NCBI RefSeq assembly: GCF_019061145.1
Contig: NZ_JAHQZS010000003.1
Span: 124,001-188,000 of the forward strand
Length of the DNA stretch: 64,000 nucleotides
DNA from: Anianabacter salinae
GTDB lineage: Bacteria > Pseudomonadota > Alphaproteobacteria > Rhodobacterales > Rhodobacteraceae
Direction: 5' to 3'
In this document: piece by piece, positions 1,307-49,845 of the stretch
Layout: each line of letters begins with the position of its first letter
How positions within the stretch are numbered: position 1 is the first letter of the stretch
Translations under genes and position numbers: made by a program
The notes under the pieces: model-generated
What the model saw: only the letters and a program-made list of their open reading frames with translations
Told to the model about the DNA's origin: nothing
Database searches by the model: none

Positions 1307-1537
1307 CGTTGGCACCTCCTGGCGCCTCGGTCCAACGTAACAGCCTTGCGAAGTTTTGTGGCGACAATGGGGCTTTCCACAACTTCCTGCGGTTACCCAC
1401 AAAATAAAGCTTTACTCAGACTCCCGCAGGACACACCATATCTGGTAAGGGCGGCCTCTGTAACCGCCGCTCTTGGAGCAGGCACCAAGCCGTAGCGGAC
1501 CAGCAGTGTTCGCAGGCGAAACCCAGAGAGGCCGCGC

Positions 1538-2038
1538 ATGTCGCTTTCAGAGCAGTTCCTTTCGGACGACATCCACCCCATCGACATCGTCGAACATCTT
1601 GCCGAACATCAGGACTGGGACTTTGACCGCGTGTCGGACGACCAGATCGCGATGGCGGTCGAGGGGCAGTGGCGCACCTACTCGATCACGCTGGCCTGGA
1701 CGCATTTCGACGAGACGCTTCGCCTGATCTGCACCTTCGAGATGGAGCCTCCCGAAGACCGTTTGCCGGCGCTCTACGAGACGCTCAACCGCACCAACGA
1801 CACCTGCTGGGCGGGCGCGTTCAGCTACTGGCCGGAACAGCGCCTGATGGTCTACCGCTATGGCCTGATCCTTGCGGGCGGCCAGATGGCCAGCCCCGAG
1901 CAGATCGACCAGATGATCGGCGCCGCCGTCAGCGCGGCGGAACGCTACTACCCCGCGTTCCAGCTTGTCGCTTGGGGCAACCGAGAGCCGAAGGACGCGA
2001 TGCAGGTCGCCATTGCACAGGCCTACGGGCGCGCCTAA
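1538..2038 (+). CDS. YbjN domain-containing protein
   Basis: 166-aa protein of the YbjN family (PF10722), a small alpha/beta fold related to type III secretion chaperones. E. coli YbjN affects motility and stress responses, but its biochemistry is unsettled. The sequence shows an acidic N-terminus, the segment LIAEHLAE-like IVEHLAEHQDWDFDR, and a central region (about residues 50-110) with conserved Trp and Tyr (TLAWTHFDE, CWAGAFSYWPE). No signal peptide or membrane segment is visible, so it is probably cytoplasmic. proC follows 36 bp later on the same strand, so they may be cotranscribed. The 231 bp upstream, after the ubiK terminator, should hold its promoter, but I see no convincing one. 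Confidence 0.8.
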   Translation: MSLSEQFLSDDIHPIDIVEHLAEHQDWDFDRVSDDQIAMAVEGQWRTYSITLAWTHFDETLRLICTFEMEPPEDRLPALYETLNRTNDTCWAGAFSYWPEQRLMVYRYGLILAGGQMASPEQIDQMIGAAVSAAERYYPAFQLVAWGNREPKDAMQVAIAQAYGRA

Positions 2039-2074
2039 CCTCCGCCCCCTGAAGCGATTTGGGGGCGACGCACC

Positions 2075-2887
2075 ATGGATATGAACGACATCGAACGCCG
2101 CGGCCTTGTCCTTATGGGCTGCGGCAAGATGGGATCGGCGATGCTGGCCGGATGGCTGGCGCGGGGCTTGCCTGCACCGTCCGTCACCGTGATCGACCCC
2201 AAGCCGACCGACTGGTTGCGCGCGCAGGGCACGCGCCTGAACGCCGACCTTCCAGCCGATCCTGCCATCGCCCTGATCGCGGTGAAGCCGCAGATGATGG
2301 GCGACGCGCTGCCCGGTCTGCGGGCGCTGGGCGGGGGCGGCACGCTGTTCGTCTCGATCGCCGCCGGAACCCCGATCGCCCGGTTCGAGGAGGCGCTTGG
2401 CGCCGGGTCGCCGATAATCCGCGCGATGCCGAACACGCCCGCCGCCGTAGGGCGCGGGATCACCGCGATCATCGGCAATGCGCAGGCGACGCCCGATCAC
2501 ATGTCCCTTGCCGAGACGCTTCTGTCGGCCGTGGGGCAGGTGGTGCAGCTCGATGATGAGGACCAGATGGACGCCGTCACCGCCGTGTCCGGGTCCGGCC
2601 CGGCCTATGTCTTCCACCTGATCGAGACGCTGGCCGCCGCGGGCGAGGCCGAGGGACTGCCGCCAGAGCTTGCCATGCAGCTTGCCAAGGCCACGGTGGG
2701 CGGCGCGGGGCAACTGGCCGAGGATGCGGTCGAGGACCCGTCGCAGCTGCGCGTCAACGTCACCAGCCCGCAAGGCACGACTGCCGCCGCGCTGGGCCTG
2801 CTGATGGATGAAGACAACGGATTTCCGGCGCTTCTGCGCCGCGCGGTCAAGGCCGCCGCCGACCGCTCTCGCGCGCTACGCGGCTAG
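2075..2887 (+). CDS. proC: Pyrroline-5-carboxylate reductase
   Basis: Last step of proline synthesis: NAD(P)H-dependent reduction of 1-pyrroline-5-carboxylate to L-proline in the cytosol. The 270-aa length is typical. The N-terminal Rossmann fold has the dinucleotide motif LMGCGKMGSAML. The family motifs IRAMPNTPAAVGRGI and AVSGSGPAYVF, followed by the C-terminal helical dimerisation domain with VTSPQGTTAAAL, make this secure. The gene ends 12 bp inside the 3' end of the convergent glycosyltransferase gene. Confidence 0.96.
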   Translation: MDMNDIERRGLVLMGCGKMGSAMLAGWLARGLPAPSVTVIDPKPTDWLRAQGTRLNADLPADPAIALIAVKPQMMGDALPGLRALGGGGTLFVSIAAGTPIARFEEALGAGSPIIRAMPNTPAAVGRGITAIIGNAQATPDHMSLAETLLSAVGQVVQLDDEDQMDAVTAVSGSGPAYVFHLIETLAAAGEAEGLPPELAMQLAKATVGGAGQLAEDAVEDPSQLRVNVTSPQGTTAAALGLLMDEDNGFPALLRRAVKAAADRSRALRG

Positions 2888-3691
2888 GGCGGTCACGGGA
2901 GCGGCGACGGGATTGATCCCGTGCCGCCGACAGATCGCATCCAGATAGCTGGTCTTGGGCGGCAATCCGCAGAACGTCGTTTCGATCACCGACCGCGCGG
3001 CATCGGGCAGGGCGACGGTCAGCGTCCCCTTGGGTTCGATCCGGTCAAGCGGCACCAGCGTCGTCCAGAACAGCCCGCTCGCCGCCTCGCTGACCGGCGC
3101 GATGCGTTCGGTCGGCAGGCCGCGCTGCAACAGGTTCGCGCTTATCATCATGTGGGTCAGCAGCATCGTGCCGGTGGCGCCCTCGCGCAGGTCCTTCAGG
3201 GTCCATGTCTCGCCCGCCGCAATCTGCTCTTCCATGCGCCGCACGAAACGCGGACCGCGCCAGGGCATTATCGGAGGGTCCGCGTTCAGGAACTCAAGCG
3301 CCTCGGCCAGCGCGGACAGGTCGCCCGGCACACGCAGCACCAGCGGCGAGACGACATCAGGCGCGGACAGCCCGAACAGCACGTCATCGGCGGGCAGCGG
3401 CGCAACGCACAGCGCGCGCATGTCGAACCATGTGACATCGGCCTGCGCCAGCAGCGTCAGCCGGAAGATGTCAGTGAAAATCGCGGCGTCGTGCGCGTCA
3501 GGCAGATCGCGCGGGGGCAGGATATCCGCTGCCGAGACAAGATCGACGGCCCCTGGCACGCCCGCAACATCCCCGTAGGCGTAAAGCTGCACGTCATGGC
3601 CGTGGTCCACCCAGGACTGCAATACGACCTGTTCGATGAAACTGAGCCTGTCGCCAAGCCAGAGACTTGCGACCCGCATCCTGTGCGCCAT
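2876..3691 (-). CDS. GT32-like glycosyltransferase (DXD-type sugar transferase)
   Basis: About 271 aa. The region around residues 70-110 (FTDIFRLTLLAQADVTWFDM) resembles the core of the Gly_transf_sug/GT32 fold. There an Asp-Ile-Phe-Arg segment precedes a metal-binding Asp; here the second acidic site reads WFDMRAL. Such enzymes decorate surface polysaccharides, but the donor and acceptor cannot be read from the sequence. I chose ATG 3691 (MAHRMRVASLWLG). An upstream in-frame ATG at 3814 would overlap the divergent csaA gene and adds unconserved residues. No other polysaccharide genes are nearby. Confidence 0.6.
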   Translation of the reverse strand: MAHRMRVASLWLGDRLSFIEQVVLQSWVDHGHDVQLYAYGDVAGVPGAVDLVSAADILPPRDLPDAHDAAIFTDIFRLTLLAQADVTWFDMRALCVAPLPADDVLFGLSAPDVVSPLVLRVPGDLSALAEALEFLNADPPIMPWRGPRFVRRMEEQIAAGETWTLKDLREGATGTMLLTHMMISANLLQRGLPTERIAPVSEAASGLFWTTLVPLDRIEPKGTLTVALPDAARSVIETTFCGLPPKTSYLDAICRRHGINPVAAPVTALAA

Positions 3692-14313: not shown

Positions 14314-14633
14314 TGCCACCACTCCTTGCAGGGGGGGCGCTTGGGCCCCGCAAGAGACCGCGGGTCATCGGCTCCGGCCGTCACTGACGCCGCGTTTTCC
14401 CTCAAATCTGCGACATTCTGTCTGGAAATCAAGCCGTTTCGGGCAAGATGCCGTTGGGGCATCCGGCGCCGCCGCCCGAAAATCAGGCAGCCCCCCGGAC
14501 TTGCGCCGTCGCCAGTTGCGCGCGGAAACACCGTCCGCCTTGACGTTGTGGCGCGCGCGCCTTGACTTCCCGGCCCCGTCACGGTGTATCGGCCCGGCGC
14601 CCCGCACGCCTTGCTGAACAGGACATTTTCGCC
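14314..14633 (+). other. 320-bp divergent intergenic region cfa/aspS
   Basis: It holds the cfa ribosome-binding site at its left end and the aspS promoter candidate at 14562-14590. The middle part (14390-14520) has no open frame, repeat or RNA signature that I can recognise. The cfa promoter should be here on the minus strand, but no convincing -35/-10 pair was seen. Confidence 0.5.
14562..14590 (+). promoter_or_regulatory. Candidate promoter of aspS
   Basis: TTGACT (14562-14567), a 17-bp spacer and TGTATC (14585-14590), with the ATG 43 bp downstream. The -35 is strong and the -10 is moderate, as is common in this family. A second TTGACG at 14540 lacks a matching -10. Confidence 0.5.
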
Positions 14634-16601
14634 ATGCACGCCTATCGCAGCCACACCTGCGCCGACCTTCGCCATGACAACGTGGGCGAGACCGTTCGCC
14701 TTGCCGGATGGGTCCACCGCGTCCGCGACCACGGCGGCGTGCTGTTCATCGACCTGCGCGACCACTACGGCATCACGCAGGTGCTGTGCGATCCCGACAG
14801 CCCGGTTTTTGCGCAGGCCGAGAAGGTCCGCTCGGAATACTGCATCCGCATCGACGGCACCGTGAAGGCGCGCGACGCCAGCCTCGTGAACACCAAGATC
14901 CCCACCGGCGAGATCGAGGTCTACATCCGCGACATCGAGATCCTCGGCGCCGCCGAGGAACTGCCGCTGATGGTGTTCGGCGATCAGGAATACCCCGAGG
15001 AAACGCGCCTTCGCTACCGCTTCCTCGACCTGCGCCGCACCAAGCTGCACGAGAACATGATGCTGCGCAGCCGCGTCGTTGCCGACCTGCGCCAGCGCAT
15101 GTGGGGGCAGGGGTTCACCGAGTTCCAGACGCCGATCATCACCGCCTCGTCCCCCGAGGGCGCGCGCGACTTCCTGGTGCCGTCGCGCCTGCATCCCGGC
15201 AAGTTCTACGCGCTGCCGCAGGCCCCCCAGCAGTTCAAGCAGCTGATCATGGTGTCGGGCTTCGACAAGTATTTCCAGATCGCGCCCTGTTTCCGCGACG
15301 AAGACCCGCGCGCCGACCGCTCGCCCACCGATTTCTACCAGCTTGACCTCGAGATGAGCTTTGTGACGCAGGACGACGTGTTCGCCGCCATCCAACCGGT
15401 TATCCGGGGCATGTTCGAGCAGTTTGGCGGCGGCCGCAAGGTCGATGCCGAGTGGCCGCAGATCACCTATGCCGACGCGCTGGCGAAATACGGCACCGAC
15501 AAGCCCGACCTGCGCAATCCGATTCAAATGCAGGTCGTGTCAGAGCATTTCCGCGACTCTGGCTTTGCGATCTTCGCCAAGCTTCTGGAGCAGGACGGCA
15601 CCGAGATCCGCGCTATCCCTGCGCCCACGGGCGGCAGCCGCAAGTTCTGTGACCGCATGAACGCCTTTGCCCAGAAAGAGGGCCTGCCGGGCATGGGGTA
15701 TATCTTCTGGCGTCCGAAGACCGAGGAGACGGTAGACGAGGAGTTTCTACAACGAATTGCCTCAGTTTATGGTGATGCTGTGGCTGAGTCTGGCGGGACA
15801 CCTATCCGTAAGAACCAGCCAATTTCCGCCATCGACAGCAAGTTGTTGGCAAGGATGCTCGAAAAGATCCAAGAGAGCGGAGACTTGGACAGCGTTGCTG
15901 CCCTATGGTCGAAGTATATGGAGGCCGCCGGCCCCCTCGCCAAGAACATCGGACCCGAGCGGACCGAGGCGATCCGCCAGCAGCTTGGCCTTGGCGTCGG
16001 CGACGCGGCGTTCTTCCTTGGCGGCAAGCCGGATGCGTTCCAGCGGGTCGCGTCCAAGGCGCGCGACACCATCGGCGAGGAGCTGGGCCTGACGGACAAG
16101 GACCGCTTCGCCTTTGCCTGGATCGTCGATTTCCCGATGTACGAGAAGGACGAGGAAACCGGCGCGATCGACTTTTCGCACAATCCGTTCTCGATGCCGC
16201 AAGGCGGGATGGACGCGCTGAACGGCGACCCGCTGGACGTGCTCGGCTATCAGTATGACTTGGCCTGCAACGGCTATGAACTGATCTCGGGCGCGATCCG
16301 GAACCACCGCCCCGACATCATGTTCAAGGCGTTCGAGGTTGCGGGCTATGGCCGCGACGAGGTGGAAAAGCGCTTCGGCGGCATGGTCAACGCCTTCCGC
16401 TACGGCGCCCCGCCCCACGGCGGCTGTGCGGCGGGCATCGACCGGATGGTGATGCTGCTGGCCGACGAGGCGAACATCCGCGAGGTCATCATGTTCCCGA
16501 TGAACCAGCGCGCCGAAGACCTGATGATGGGCGCCCCGTCCGAGCCGATGAACGAGCAACTCCGCGAACTGGGCCTGCGCGTCCTGCCGCGAGAGGAGTG
16601 A
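14634..16601 (+). CDS. aspS: Aspartyl-tRNA synthetase (Asp/Asx type) with a 59-residue insertion
   Basis: 655 aa, longer than the usual 590 or so of this family. It activates aspartate and charges tRNA-Asp. The N-terminal OB-fold anticodon domain begins [16 protein letters not shown]. Class II motif 2 ([12 protein letters not shown]) and motif 3 ([17 protein letters not shown]) are intact. The GAD domain lies between them. Within it, between [15 protein letters not shown] and [17 protein letters not shown], residues 370-428 (15741-15917) form an extra in-frame segment. This segment has about 51% G+C and many codons rare in the rest of the gene (CTA, TCA, GGA, AGG, TTG). The catalytic residues are outside it, so the enzyme is probably active. 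ATG 14634 gives the family N-terminus. Confidence 0.95.
15741..15917 (+). other. Low-GC in-frame insertion within aspS
   Basis: This 177-bp segment contributes a hydrophilic, mostly helical stretch ([13 protein letters not shown] at the start, [15 protein letters not shown] in the second half). Relatives, as I recall them, have only a few residues at this point of the GAD domain. By my count 82 of 160 bases (15741-15900) are G or C, well below the flanking aspS sequence. I see no terminal inverted repeats, no clear target duplication, and no intein splice residues. Confidence 0.6.
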
Positions 16602-16606
16602 TGGGG

Positions 16607-17371
16607 CTACAGCCTGCGATACCTTCCGCCACCAAGGAATGCGATGTGCCCGTTGTCGCGAAGTACTTGTAACTGTTGACGTATCTTCGGACGGACGTTA
16701 GCGTTTTCTGGATAGAGAAGAGTCAAGTGATGCTCGAAAGCATACACGTCTGATATTGAGAACTCGCCTGTCCCGCACTGGTCTACACAGCGCATTACGT
16801 CGACTAGCCAACCTCTCGCGGCCCCTGTCCGATTGCCGACAAAGTAGGTGCGCTTCCAATCATCAAGAACTTGGTGTCTTGGCCTAATGATGCCATTTTC
16901 GATGATCGGTATTCTGCCAGATTGCGGGATCTGACCTAGCAGTATGTTTGACCCTATCCATCCTGCGCGACGCGCAGTCGCCTTTAATGGCGGTCTCTTC
17001 TCGACAACGGATTGAACAAAGAAGCGCTTTGGCACAACAAACATGTTGTCTACGGTTCGCTCATTGCGATCTTACTGAAGTAAGATCAAGTTTGGTGAGG
17101 AATCTGACGCTAGACGTTCCATTTTCGTTCGAAATGCGCCGTTTGCAATCTTTCGACCAAACTTCCGGGTTTGGCTCTTGAGTTCGTATTGATCACCGCA
17201 ATCTGCGCAATAAAAGTCCGCGACAGGTCGATTGGCCGTGAAGCGCGATAGCTTGGAATTGCCACAGTTCGGGCAATACATCCACCGGGCGGCCCAATTT
17301 TCTGTGTCATAGCGAGCGACTTGCGTGGCGCCATGGAATTGTTGTGGCGCTTCCTCAAACCCTCGTTTCAT
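16607..17371 (-). pseudogene. DpnI-type methyl-directed restriction endonuclease, interrupted by an in-frame TAA
   Basis: Read through the stop, this frame has 254 codons, the length of DpnI, and matches it from end to end. The N-terminal part has the zinc-binding pairs CPNC (Cys33, Cys36) and CADC (Cys55, Cys58). It also has the PD-(D/E)XK active site as Asp52 in NRPVADFYC and Glu63-Leu-Lys65 in QYELKS. The C-terminal part has PPLKATARRAGWIGSNI and the winged-helix end KIRQQLQVLRDNGHIAFLGGG. DpnI cuts GATC only when adenine is methylated. A TAA at 17072-17074 (codon 100) falls where DpnI has a Tyr (LTY), so one base change would explain it. An in-frame ATG at 17044 could restart the C-terminal part. 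The gene is AT-rich and convergent with aspS, 5 bp apart. Alternatives are a sequencing error or two half-proteins. Confidence 0.85.
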
Positions 17372-17664
17372 ACGGTATTTCTGAAGAGGACTGTCGATTT
17401 AGAGAATCGAATGGCGTTCTCAAATTTGACGAAGCTCGCAAGCTTCTCGTACTTTGGATCATCCTCAGCATCACGCTTTGAAACTGAGACAGAATATCGA
17501 CCAGTCTCAGCAGGGGAAACAAGGATGGAAAGGTCGTCGGTTCCTGCAGGGGAAACATCAGAGCATCCGCAAGCCGGACAACGACTATCGCAAGCACAGG
17601 ACCATTCTTCGTCCCATACTTCGCAACAGGTTGGGCATTCGTAGTAAATTGCTAACCAAGCCAT
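17368..17664 (-). CDS. Cysteine-rich zinc-ribbon small protein, partner of the DpnI-like gene
   Basis: 98 aa. The N-terminal 35 residues hold eight cysteines (10, 13, 14, 23, 25, 29, 32 and 34) in CPTCCEVWDEEWSCACDSRC and CPACGC. This resembles small zinc-ribbon proteins found near mobile genes. The C-terminal half is charged and unrecognised. The start at 17664 follows GGAAAGGGG at a good distance; an upstream in-frame ATG at 17778 would run into the divergent GNAT gene. Its TGA overlaps the DpnI-like start by ATGA, so the two are coupled. It shares the low G+C of that gene. It is not obviously DpnD or a methylase. Confidence 0.6.
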   Translation of the reverse strand: MAWLAIYYECPTCCEVWDEEWSCACDSRCPACGCSDVSPAGTDDLSILVSPAETGRYSVSVSKRDAEDDPKYEKLASFVKFENAIRFSKSTVLFRNTV

Positions 17665-17756
17665 GAAATGGCCCCTTTCCTTCAAGGCGTTGGCAAATAA
17701 TATGTTTCTCTTGAATGTGCCCATACTTTCGAAGTTTGTCGAGGAATGATTCGCTG

Positions 17757-18476
17757 ATGCCCCACCCCGCCGACGCACCGCTTGTTCCCGGCTGGACGCC
17801 GCCGCCCCTGCCGGGGCCGGACGTCATGGAGGGGCGCCTCGCGCGGCTCGAGCGGCTTGGGGTCCGGCACGCGGCTGCGCTGCATGCGGCGAACGCGGAG
17901 GACGATGCGATCTGGAAATGGCTGCCCTACGGTCCGTTCGGCACCGAAGCCGCCTATCTGGACTGGATGCAGGACAGCGCCCTTGGCGCCGATCCGATGT
18001 TCTATGCCATCATGGACCGCACGACCGGGCAGTGGGGCGGGGTCGCCAGTTATCTGCGGATCACCCCCGCGGCAGGCAGCATCGAGGTCGGGCACATCAA
18101 TTTCGCGCCGGCCTTGCAGCGCACCCCCGCCGCGACCGAGGCGATGTACCTGATGATGAGGTGGGCCTTTGGCGCCGGGTATCGCCGCTATGAATGGAAG
18201 TGCAATGCGCTGAACCTTGGCTCGCGCCGGGCGGCGCAGCGGCTTGGCCTGTCTTACGAGGGCATCTTTCGGCAGGCCGCCGTGGTGAAGGGGCGCAACC
18301 GCGACACCGCGTGGTTTGCCGCCATCGATGCCGAATGGCCTGCCCTGCAAGCCGCCTTCAAGACCTGGCTCGACCTTGCGAATTTCGACGCGGAGGGGCG
18401 CCAACGTCAGTCCCTTTCGGAGCTGACCGCGCCGATCCTTGTGGCGCGCGACCCCGCGCTAGCAGGACGCGGCTAG
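17757..18476 (+). CDS. GNAT N-acetyltransferase (RimJ/RimL-like)
   Basis: 239 aa. It resembles acetyl-CoA-dependent transferases of the RimJ/RimL type. The C-terminal core has YRRYEWKCNALNLGSRRAAQ followed by RLGLSYEGIFRQ, the usual beta4-alpha4-beta5 region of this subgroup, and a conserved RNRDTAWFA end. The N-terminus is Pro-rich (PGWTPPPLPGP), also typical of this subgroup. GAGGA 11 nt before ATG 17757 supports the start. The substrate is unknown. Its TAG lies in a 4-bp overlap with the convergent response-regulator gene. Confidence 0.8.
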   Translation: MPHPADAPLVPGWTPPPLPGPDVMEGRLARLERLGVRHAAALHAANAEDDAIWKWLPYGPFGTEAAYLDWMQDSALGADPMFYAIMDRTTGQWGGVASYLRITPAAGSIEVGHINFAPALQRTPAATEAMYLMMRWAFGAGYRRYEWKCNALNLGSRRAAQRLGLSYEGIFRQAAVVKGRNRDTAWFAAIDAEWPALQAAFKTWLDLANFDAEGRQRQSLSELTAPILVARDPALAGRG

Positions 18477-49658: not shown

Positions 49659-49733
49659 ATTGCTGAAAGCCCTGATTTTGCTGGCCTAACTGCGCCCATC
49701 ATGGCTGCTCGATACTGTGGTGACAAGGTGAAA

Positions 49734-49749
49734 TGAGGTGCGCACCTCA
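49734..49749. promoter_or_regulatory. LacI-type operator O1 (perfect 16-bp palindrome)
   Basis: TGAGGTGCGCACCTCA is fully symmetrical and has the central CG step typical of LacI/GalR operators. Its centre is 30 bp from that of O2. Confidence 0.85.
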
Positions 49750-49763
49750 GGAATTGCTTGCTT

Positions 49764-49779
49764 TGAGGTGCGCACCTCA
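49764..49779. promoter_or_regulatory. LacI-type operator O2 (perfect 16-bp palindrome)
   Basis: A second identical TGAGGTGCGCACCTCA. A TTGCTT at 49754-49759 with TCATCT at 49777-49782 (17-bp spacer) would place this operator inside the promoter, so a bound repressor would block RNA polymerase. The promoter itself is tentative. Confidence 0.85.
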
Positions 49780-49845
49780 TCTATCTCTTGGCGTCAGTAA
49801 AGCTTCGGCAGGAGGGCCGTGGCGGTGCAACTGGGAGGAAACCAA

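Follow-up and report, generated by a model that had tools for sequence, protein, structure and literature searches.

A DpnI-type gene interrupted by a single stop codon, and its zinc-ribbon-like companion, in a low-GC insert of Anianabacter salinae

The window, by which we mean the whole 64,000-nucleotide stretch of Anianabacter salinae DNA that was analysed, carries a low-GC insert of 1.15 kb (16602..17756), delimited by a step in GC content, between the aspS reading frame (aspartyl-tRNA synthetase, 14562..16601, plus strand) on its left and a gene for a GNAT acetyltransferase (17757..18476, plus strand) on its right. The insert holds two genes, both on the minus strand. One is a gene of 254 codons for a DpnI-type (Gm6ATC-dependent) endonuclease (16607..17371), which lies tail-to-tail with aspS, is broken by one TAA, and was recognized from the list of open reading frames, Pfam, and its predicted fold. 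The other is an intact companion gene (17368..17664) encoding a zinc-ribbon-like protein of 98 residues with six invariant Cys. The GC content is about 50% in the insert, with 51% in the DpnI gene and 48% in the companion, compared to 65.7% in the window and 64-69% in the flanking genes. An earlier note on this DNA had pointed out the DpnI homolog and its stop, and was silent on the strand, on the inverted repeat around the stop, on the overlapping zinc-ribbon-like gene, and on the insertion site.

Read on the minus strand from 17371 down to 16607, the DpnI-type frame comprises 254 codons followed by its own terminal stop, with no frameshift and exactly one internal stop, the in-frame TAA at codon 100 (17072..17074). 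At this position, DpnI and the nine intact relatives that we aligned all have a Tyr, in agreement with the earlier note, which had placed a single in-frame TAA at a DpnI Tyr. The read-through protein scores 215.8 bits against PF06044 (cut-off 26.7) and matches DpnI among the PDB sequences with an E-value of 5.1e-68 over residues 10-254, values that exclude a chance match to the DpnI family. Each half alone also exceeds the PF06044 cut-off, with 113.1 bits (E 1.6e-32) for the N-terminal half and 75.7 bits (E 4.6e-21) for the C-terminal half, and the latter contains the C-terminal winged helix PF17726 (DpnI_C, E 2.3e-27, 93.8 bits against a cut-off of 23). PADLOC likewise assigns the read-through protein to the type II methyl-directed enzymes (7.4e-85).

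The structure predicted for the read-through protein, from a model built with ten aligned sequences, has a mean pLDDT of 91.1, and Foldseek superposes it on 4esj_B with a TM-score of 0.85 (TMq) and an rmsd of 1.7. The top row by E-value was 4kyw_A (E 1.3e-30), but with a TMq of 0.65 and an rmsd of 8.1, a poorer superposition that is perhaps due to a different domain placement. Pfam, the PDB match, and the predicted fold all agree with the earlier description of the frame as a complete DpnI relative. C33, C36, C55, and C58, D52, and the E63-L64-K65 stretch are invariant with the nine relatives, and D52, E63, and K65 are the PD-(D/E)XK residues when aligned with DpnI. Leu129, Arg135, Trp138, and Gly140 are also present in the window protein; according to the excerpt of PMC4117772, in the catalytic domain of DpnI their equivalents form the methyl pocket or support it. 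The zinc Cys pairs, the Asp/Glu-Leu-Lys site, and the winged-helix tail, which had been named from the letters of the sequence, are thus borne out by the alignment and the PF17726 match. Not included in the alignment were copies that are truncated or broken (L008, L009, L013, L018, L019, L020, L023), sequences that are distant or match in the winged helix only (L010-L012), those scoring under the cut-off (L021, L022, L024), and the copies of the window itself (L001, L002). Among the five nearest aligned relatives, none is more than 59% identical to the window gene.

The stop divides the frame into an N-terminal ORF of 99 amino acids (17072..17371, minus strand), with the zinc ligands C33/C36/C55/C58 and the active-site residues D52, E63, and K65, and a C-terminal ORF of 145 amino acids (16607..17044, minus strand), counted from an in-frame ATG at 17044 that lies 10 codons past the TAA, with the methyl-pocket loop (L129, R135, W138, G140) and the winged helix. 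Since the catalytic residues are in one half and the methyl-reading residues in the other, neither half alone should cut Gm6ATC, as far as can be judged from the sequence. The PF06044 domain is not encoded in one uninterrupted frame, given the TAA at codon 100; the window gene is a member of the family by descent and, as assembled, not an intact enzyme.

The companion is tightly linked to the nuclease gene: its stop codon and the start codon of DpnI share bases (ATGA), and by eye a purine-rich, ribosome-binding-like run precedes its own ATG. The companion adjoins DpnI in four genomes, namely the window's and those of loci L003, L005, and L016, and it immediately precedes DpnI in L003 and L005 but immediately follows it, in reversed order, in L016. 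The alignment of these four sequences contains 20 invariant columns. A profile of the companion found a match in 3 of the 11 DpnI genomes, each time beside DpnI, and none in the other eight, which indicates that the companion marks one branch of DpnI genes and not the family. In 372 genomes of the class, whose first-look candidates were scored in part, the sole other match is partial (residues 5-45) and corresponds to a 50-amino-acid ORF in genome G750, whose locus, as read, has no DpnI match. On plasmids, weak partial matches were obtained in six records (Methylomonas, Burkholderia, Caballeronia), and no annotated endonuclease was found near them in the three neighbourhoods considered, for which the gene table is incomplete. 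In the tree of DpnI sequences, the window gene groups with those of L003, L004, L005, and L016 with modest support (85/87), no branch of this tree having reached the strong-support mark. One of these five loci, L004, has no companion and, if the grouping holds, would have lost it.

No match to the companion was obtained above cut-off in Pfam, NCBIfam, or PADLOC. Searching the PDB sequences with the companion profile gave weak zinc-ribbon matches only (best E 0.0085), and the structure model (mean pLDDT 64.6, pTM 0.45) was too poor for a fold search. Loci L017 and L018 have a different small gene upstream of DpnI, with a match to DpnD-PcfM below the cut-off (E 0.087) in L018 and no match in L017. 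A zinc-ribbon partner of DpnI was not found among the papers listed, judged by titles and abstract openings, and it is on this basis, together with the family libraries, that we call the companion undescribed. We give even odds to the hypothesis that the companion is an undescribed partner of one DpnI branch, which would regulate the nuclease, stabilize it, or widen it, at the position that DpnD occupies in other loci, and which would have outlived the nuclease here.

DpnI-type genes are sporadic among the relatives, as PF06044 was found in 3 of 394 genomes of the family and above the cut-off in 9 of 398 genomes of the phylum, the window's included in both cases, the latter number rising to 11 of 398 at an E-value of 0.001. 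Three of the 11 genomes above the cut-off in the family and phylum samples together have a DpnI gene that appears broken inside a contig, which suggests that the decay of such genes is not rare. Besides the window's genome, these are G995, whose reading frame changes within residues 150-160 (L018:1136-1971), and G1029, whose gene is without its first 70 residues (L020:1273-1821). The apparently broken copies of L018 and L020 belong to one bacterial family (f63). In G783, the N and C parts of DpnI are on two different contigs, each at a contig end, as if the assembly had been interrupted there, and in G917 the last part of DpnI, near a contig end, is divergent.

The insertion site was compared in other genomes through aspS, which has a match in 372 of 388 genomes of the family; neighbourhoods were taken from the best 30 of these 372, the window included. 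A GNAT homolog is downstream of aspS on the same strand in 11 of the 29 other loci, and the gap between the two genes is within 200 bases in six of these (L033, L039, L040, L043, L048, L055). The closeness of the two flanks therefore probably predates the insert. This adjacency is not general, as 18 of the 29 loci have no GNAT gene within 1.5 kb of aspS. In L027, L035, L042, and L049, the small ORFs between aspS and GNAT, where the window has the DpnI module, resemble by eye short Flp-pilin-type membrane proteins. The repeat scan detected no direct repeats framing the insert, the promoter scan returned 0 sites (0.9 in shuffles), and there is one terminator-like site (1.5 in shuffles). Locus L004, from the same bacterial family, also has a DpnI gene (1486-2238, plus strand) tail-to-tail with aspS (2257-3417, minus strand), with rimO on the other side and without the companion. 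The 3' end of aspS may thus be a repeated landing site for DpnI genes, and L004 may reflect a second insertion there, since its DpnI gene is 55% identical to that of the window.

A perfect inverted repeat (17068..17087) contains the TAA inside one of its two 9-bp arms (17068-17076 and 17079-17087), which are separated by a loop of 2 nt. In a post hoc test, made once the repeat had been noticed, none of the 98 other nonsense changes that the gene could undergo fell in a perfect arm of at least 9 bp (loop up to 20), and only 3 of 3000 nonsense changes, sampled from 4871 in the long ORFs of the window, did so. The whole window contains 18 perfect inverted repeats with arms of at least 9 bp and loops up to 20, four of them with loops up to 3; the longest arms belong to a perfect 17-bp inverted repeat with a 14-nt loop at 49733-49780. 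According to the excerpt of PMC7202029, imperfect inverted repeats of E. coli can be made perfect by template switching, and in the window the changed codon is inside an arm of an inverted repeat whose arms are perfect. An origin of the stop in a template switch at a quasi-palindrome, whose ancestral arms would have been imperfect, is a good hypothesis and no proof, because the test is post hoc and the ancestral allele is one that we infer. The pattern could also result from a fold-back artefact during library preparation or sequencing. The inverted repeat ends in GATC on both sides (17068-17071 and 17084-17087), which accounts for two of the five GATC sites of the gene and is probably a coincidence.

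Apart from its stop, the gene is well preserved. There are 48 columns that are invariant in the nine relatives, and the window protein keeps 46 of them when the stop is counted as a read-through Tyr. The deviations, at columns 190 and 244, are within the range of intact genes, since the same count, made for each relative against the others, gave 0-9 deviations. We simulated neutral decay with 4000 runs per setting, a run being undamaged when it had gained no additional stop and had left unaltered the 47 invariant codons that remain when codon 100 is excluded. The undamaged fraction was 38.6% after 5 neutral substitutions, 15.4% after 10, 5.75% after 15, 2.4% after 20, and 0.4% after 30. At most about 15-20 neutral substitutions, or none, have accumulated in the 762 bases since the stop appeared. 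The loss is thus young, with the active site, the zinc cysteines, the methyl pocket, and the winged helix all kept; the earlier note had called it very recent, and both the invariant columns and the simulation agree. The genus comprises one genome only, which leaves no sister strain for comparison. No near allele of the window gene was found in the genome samples of the family, the class, and the phylum, nor in plasmids and phages, nor when six peptide patterns were scanned once against genome contigs and once against viral contigs.

The profiles PF02086 and PF05869, which both matched in control genomes, have no match in this genome, and its sole N6_N4_Mtase is CcrM (6pbd, E 1.4e-156), an enzyme that acts on GANTC. 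The MT-A70 profile matched in no genome, controls included, and therefore carries no information. These searches covered four Pfam families, and within these limits the sequence data fit a Dam-free host, so that the earlier proposal of a host without Dam is supported to that extent. In two other loci, an MT-A70-type methylase gene or its tail, named by eye, is found beside DpnI (L020:1924-2559 and L003:1049-1279); a GATC target for that methylase would conflict with DpnI.

From these data, we consider it likely, with a probability of roughly 0.72, that the insert is an acquired two-gene module, in a chromosome without detected Dam, whose nuclease was recently lost by one nonsense mutation, most likely through template switching. 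A small zinc-ribbon-like gene followed by a DpnI-type nuclease gene would have been acquired horizontally and placed in the aspS-GNAT interval of a chromosome in which no Dam methylase was detected. The intact nuclease, judging from its family, would have cut incoming Gm6ATC DNA and spared the unmethylated GATC sites of the host. A template switch would then have made the 9-bp arms perfectly complementary and put the stop at the conserved Tyr, in a strand of the catalytic core. What remains would be a fragment that has the catalytic residues but does not recognize methylation and, provided that it is produced, a second one that reads the methyl mark but has no catalytic site.

A consensus error of sequencing or assembly, with the gene intact in the organism, would also account for a sole stop, without frameshift, in a gene that is otherwise well kept, all the more as this stop is inside a hairpin-forming repeat, a context where fold-back artefacts can occur. 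We nevertheless find such an error rather unlikely, as the assembly has 15 contigs, a completeness of 95.29, and a contamination of 0.02, and codon 100 is outside any homopolymer run. Moreover, a crude codon-usage screen of the window revealed no clear second nonsense-interrupted gene, although this screen is insensitive, the DpnI gene itself being negative in it.

The earlier note had also considered two half-proteins, through reinitiation at the ATG at 17044. It is conceivable that both halves are made and act together, or that the C-terminal half alone is a Gm6ATC reader, as this half opens with an in-frame ATG shortly after the stop and holds the methyl pocket and the winged helix, a domain which, in DpnI, has its own specificity for methylated DNA, according to the excerpt of PMC4117772. 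Likewise, G783 has N and C parts in two places, though each at a contig end. On the other hand, the stop falls within predicted strand 94-101 of the structure model, in the middle of the catalytic domain and not between domains, no Shine-Dalgarno-like run is visible by eye before 17044, and none of the loci read has N and C halves as neighbouring genes split here. With the functions divided between the halves in addition, we regard a working split gene as very improbable. Programmed readthrough of the stop, yielding some full-length enzyme, would be compatible with a sole internal stop and with the conservation of nearly all invariant residues, but no stop was reported inside the match in the ten other genomes above the Pfam cut-off (eleven places), and the hairpin contains the stop rather than lying downstream of it, which makes readthrough hardly credible.

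The loss of the nuclease by a recent nonsense mutation is an ordinary gene loss, but a clean case, in which a DpnI-type gene that was broken recently comes with a suggestive setting for the mutation and with a companion gene that had been overlooked. An acquired restriction gene is seen here soon after its loss, with a single stop in an otherwise preserved sequence and surrounding DNA that may account for the lesion. The case also fits the view of DpnI-type genes as small sporadic cassettes, of which two known settings are beside tRNA-synthetase genes. Should the companion prove real, the DpnI loci of its branch would be two-protein systems.

DpnI from Streptococcus pneumoniae (4esj, 4kyw; PF06044 and PF17726) shares with the window protein the same fold, zinc site, PD-(D/E)XK residues, methyl pocket, and winged helix, with 38-42% identity in the Foldseek rows, whereas the window gene is interrupted by a stop. 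The small partner gene is zinc-ribbon-like in the window locus, and is presumably DpnD in the pneumococcal one. Primers for dpnC/dpnD are mentioned in the excerpt of PMC3573125. The Neisseria drg (dam replacing gene, NmeBII type) is also a low-GC DpnI-type gene, located beside leuS instead of aspS, and the window gene is 37.8% identical to the gonococcal copies, among the matches listed; according to the excerpt of PMC4269198, drg replaces dam and is active, whereas the gene described here is broken and was not seen to have a dam locus with it. Finally, the quasi-palindrome mutations of E. coli (the thyA hotspot and the lacZ QP reporters, as far as described in the excerpt of PMC7202029) lead to the same perfect-arm outcome, and the window differs from these systems in presenting a natural nonsense change, for which the ancestral mismatch is one that we infer.
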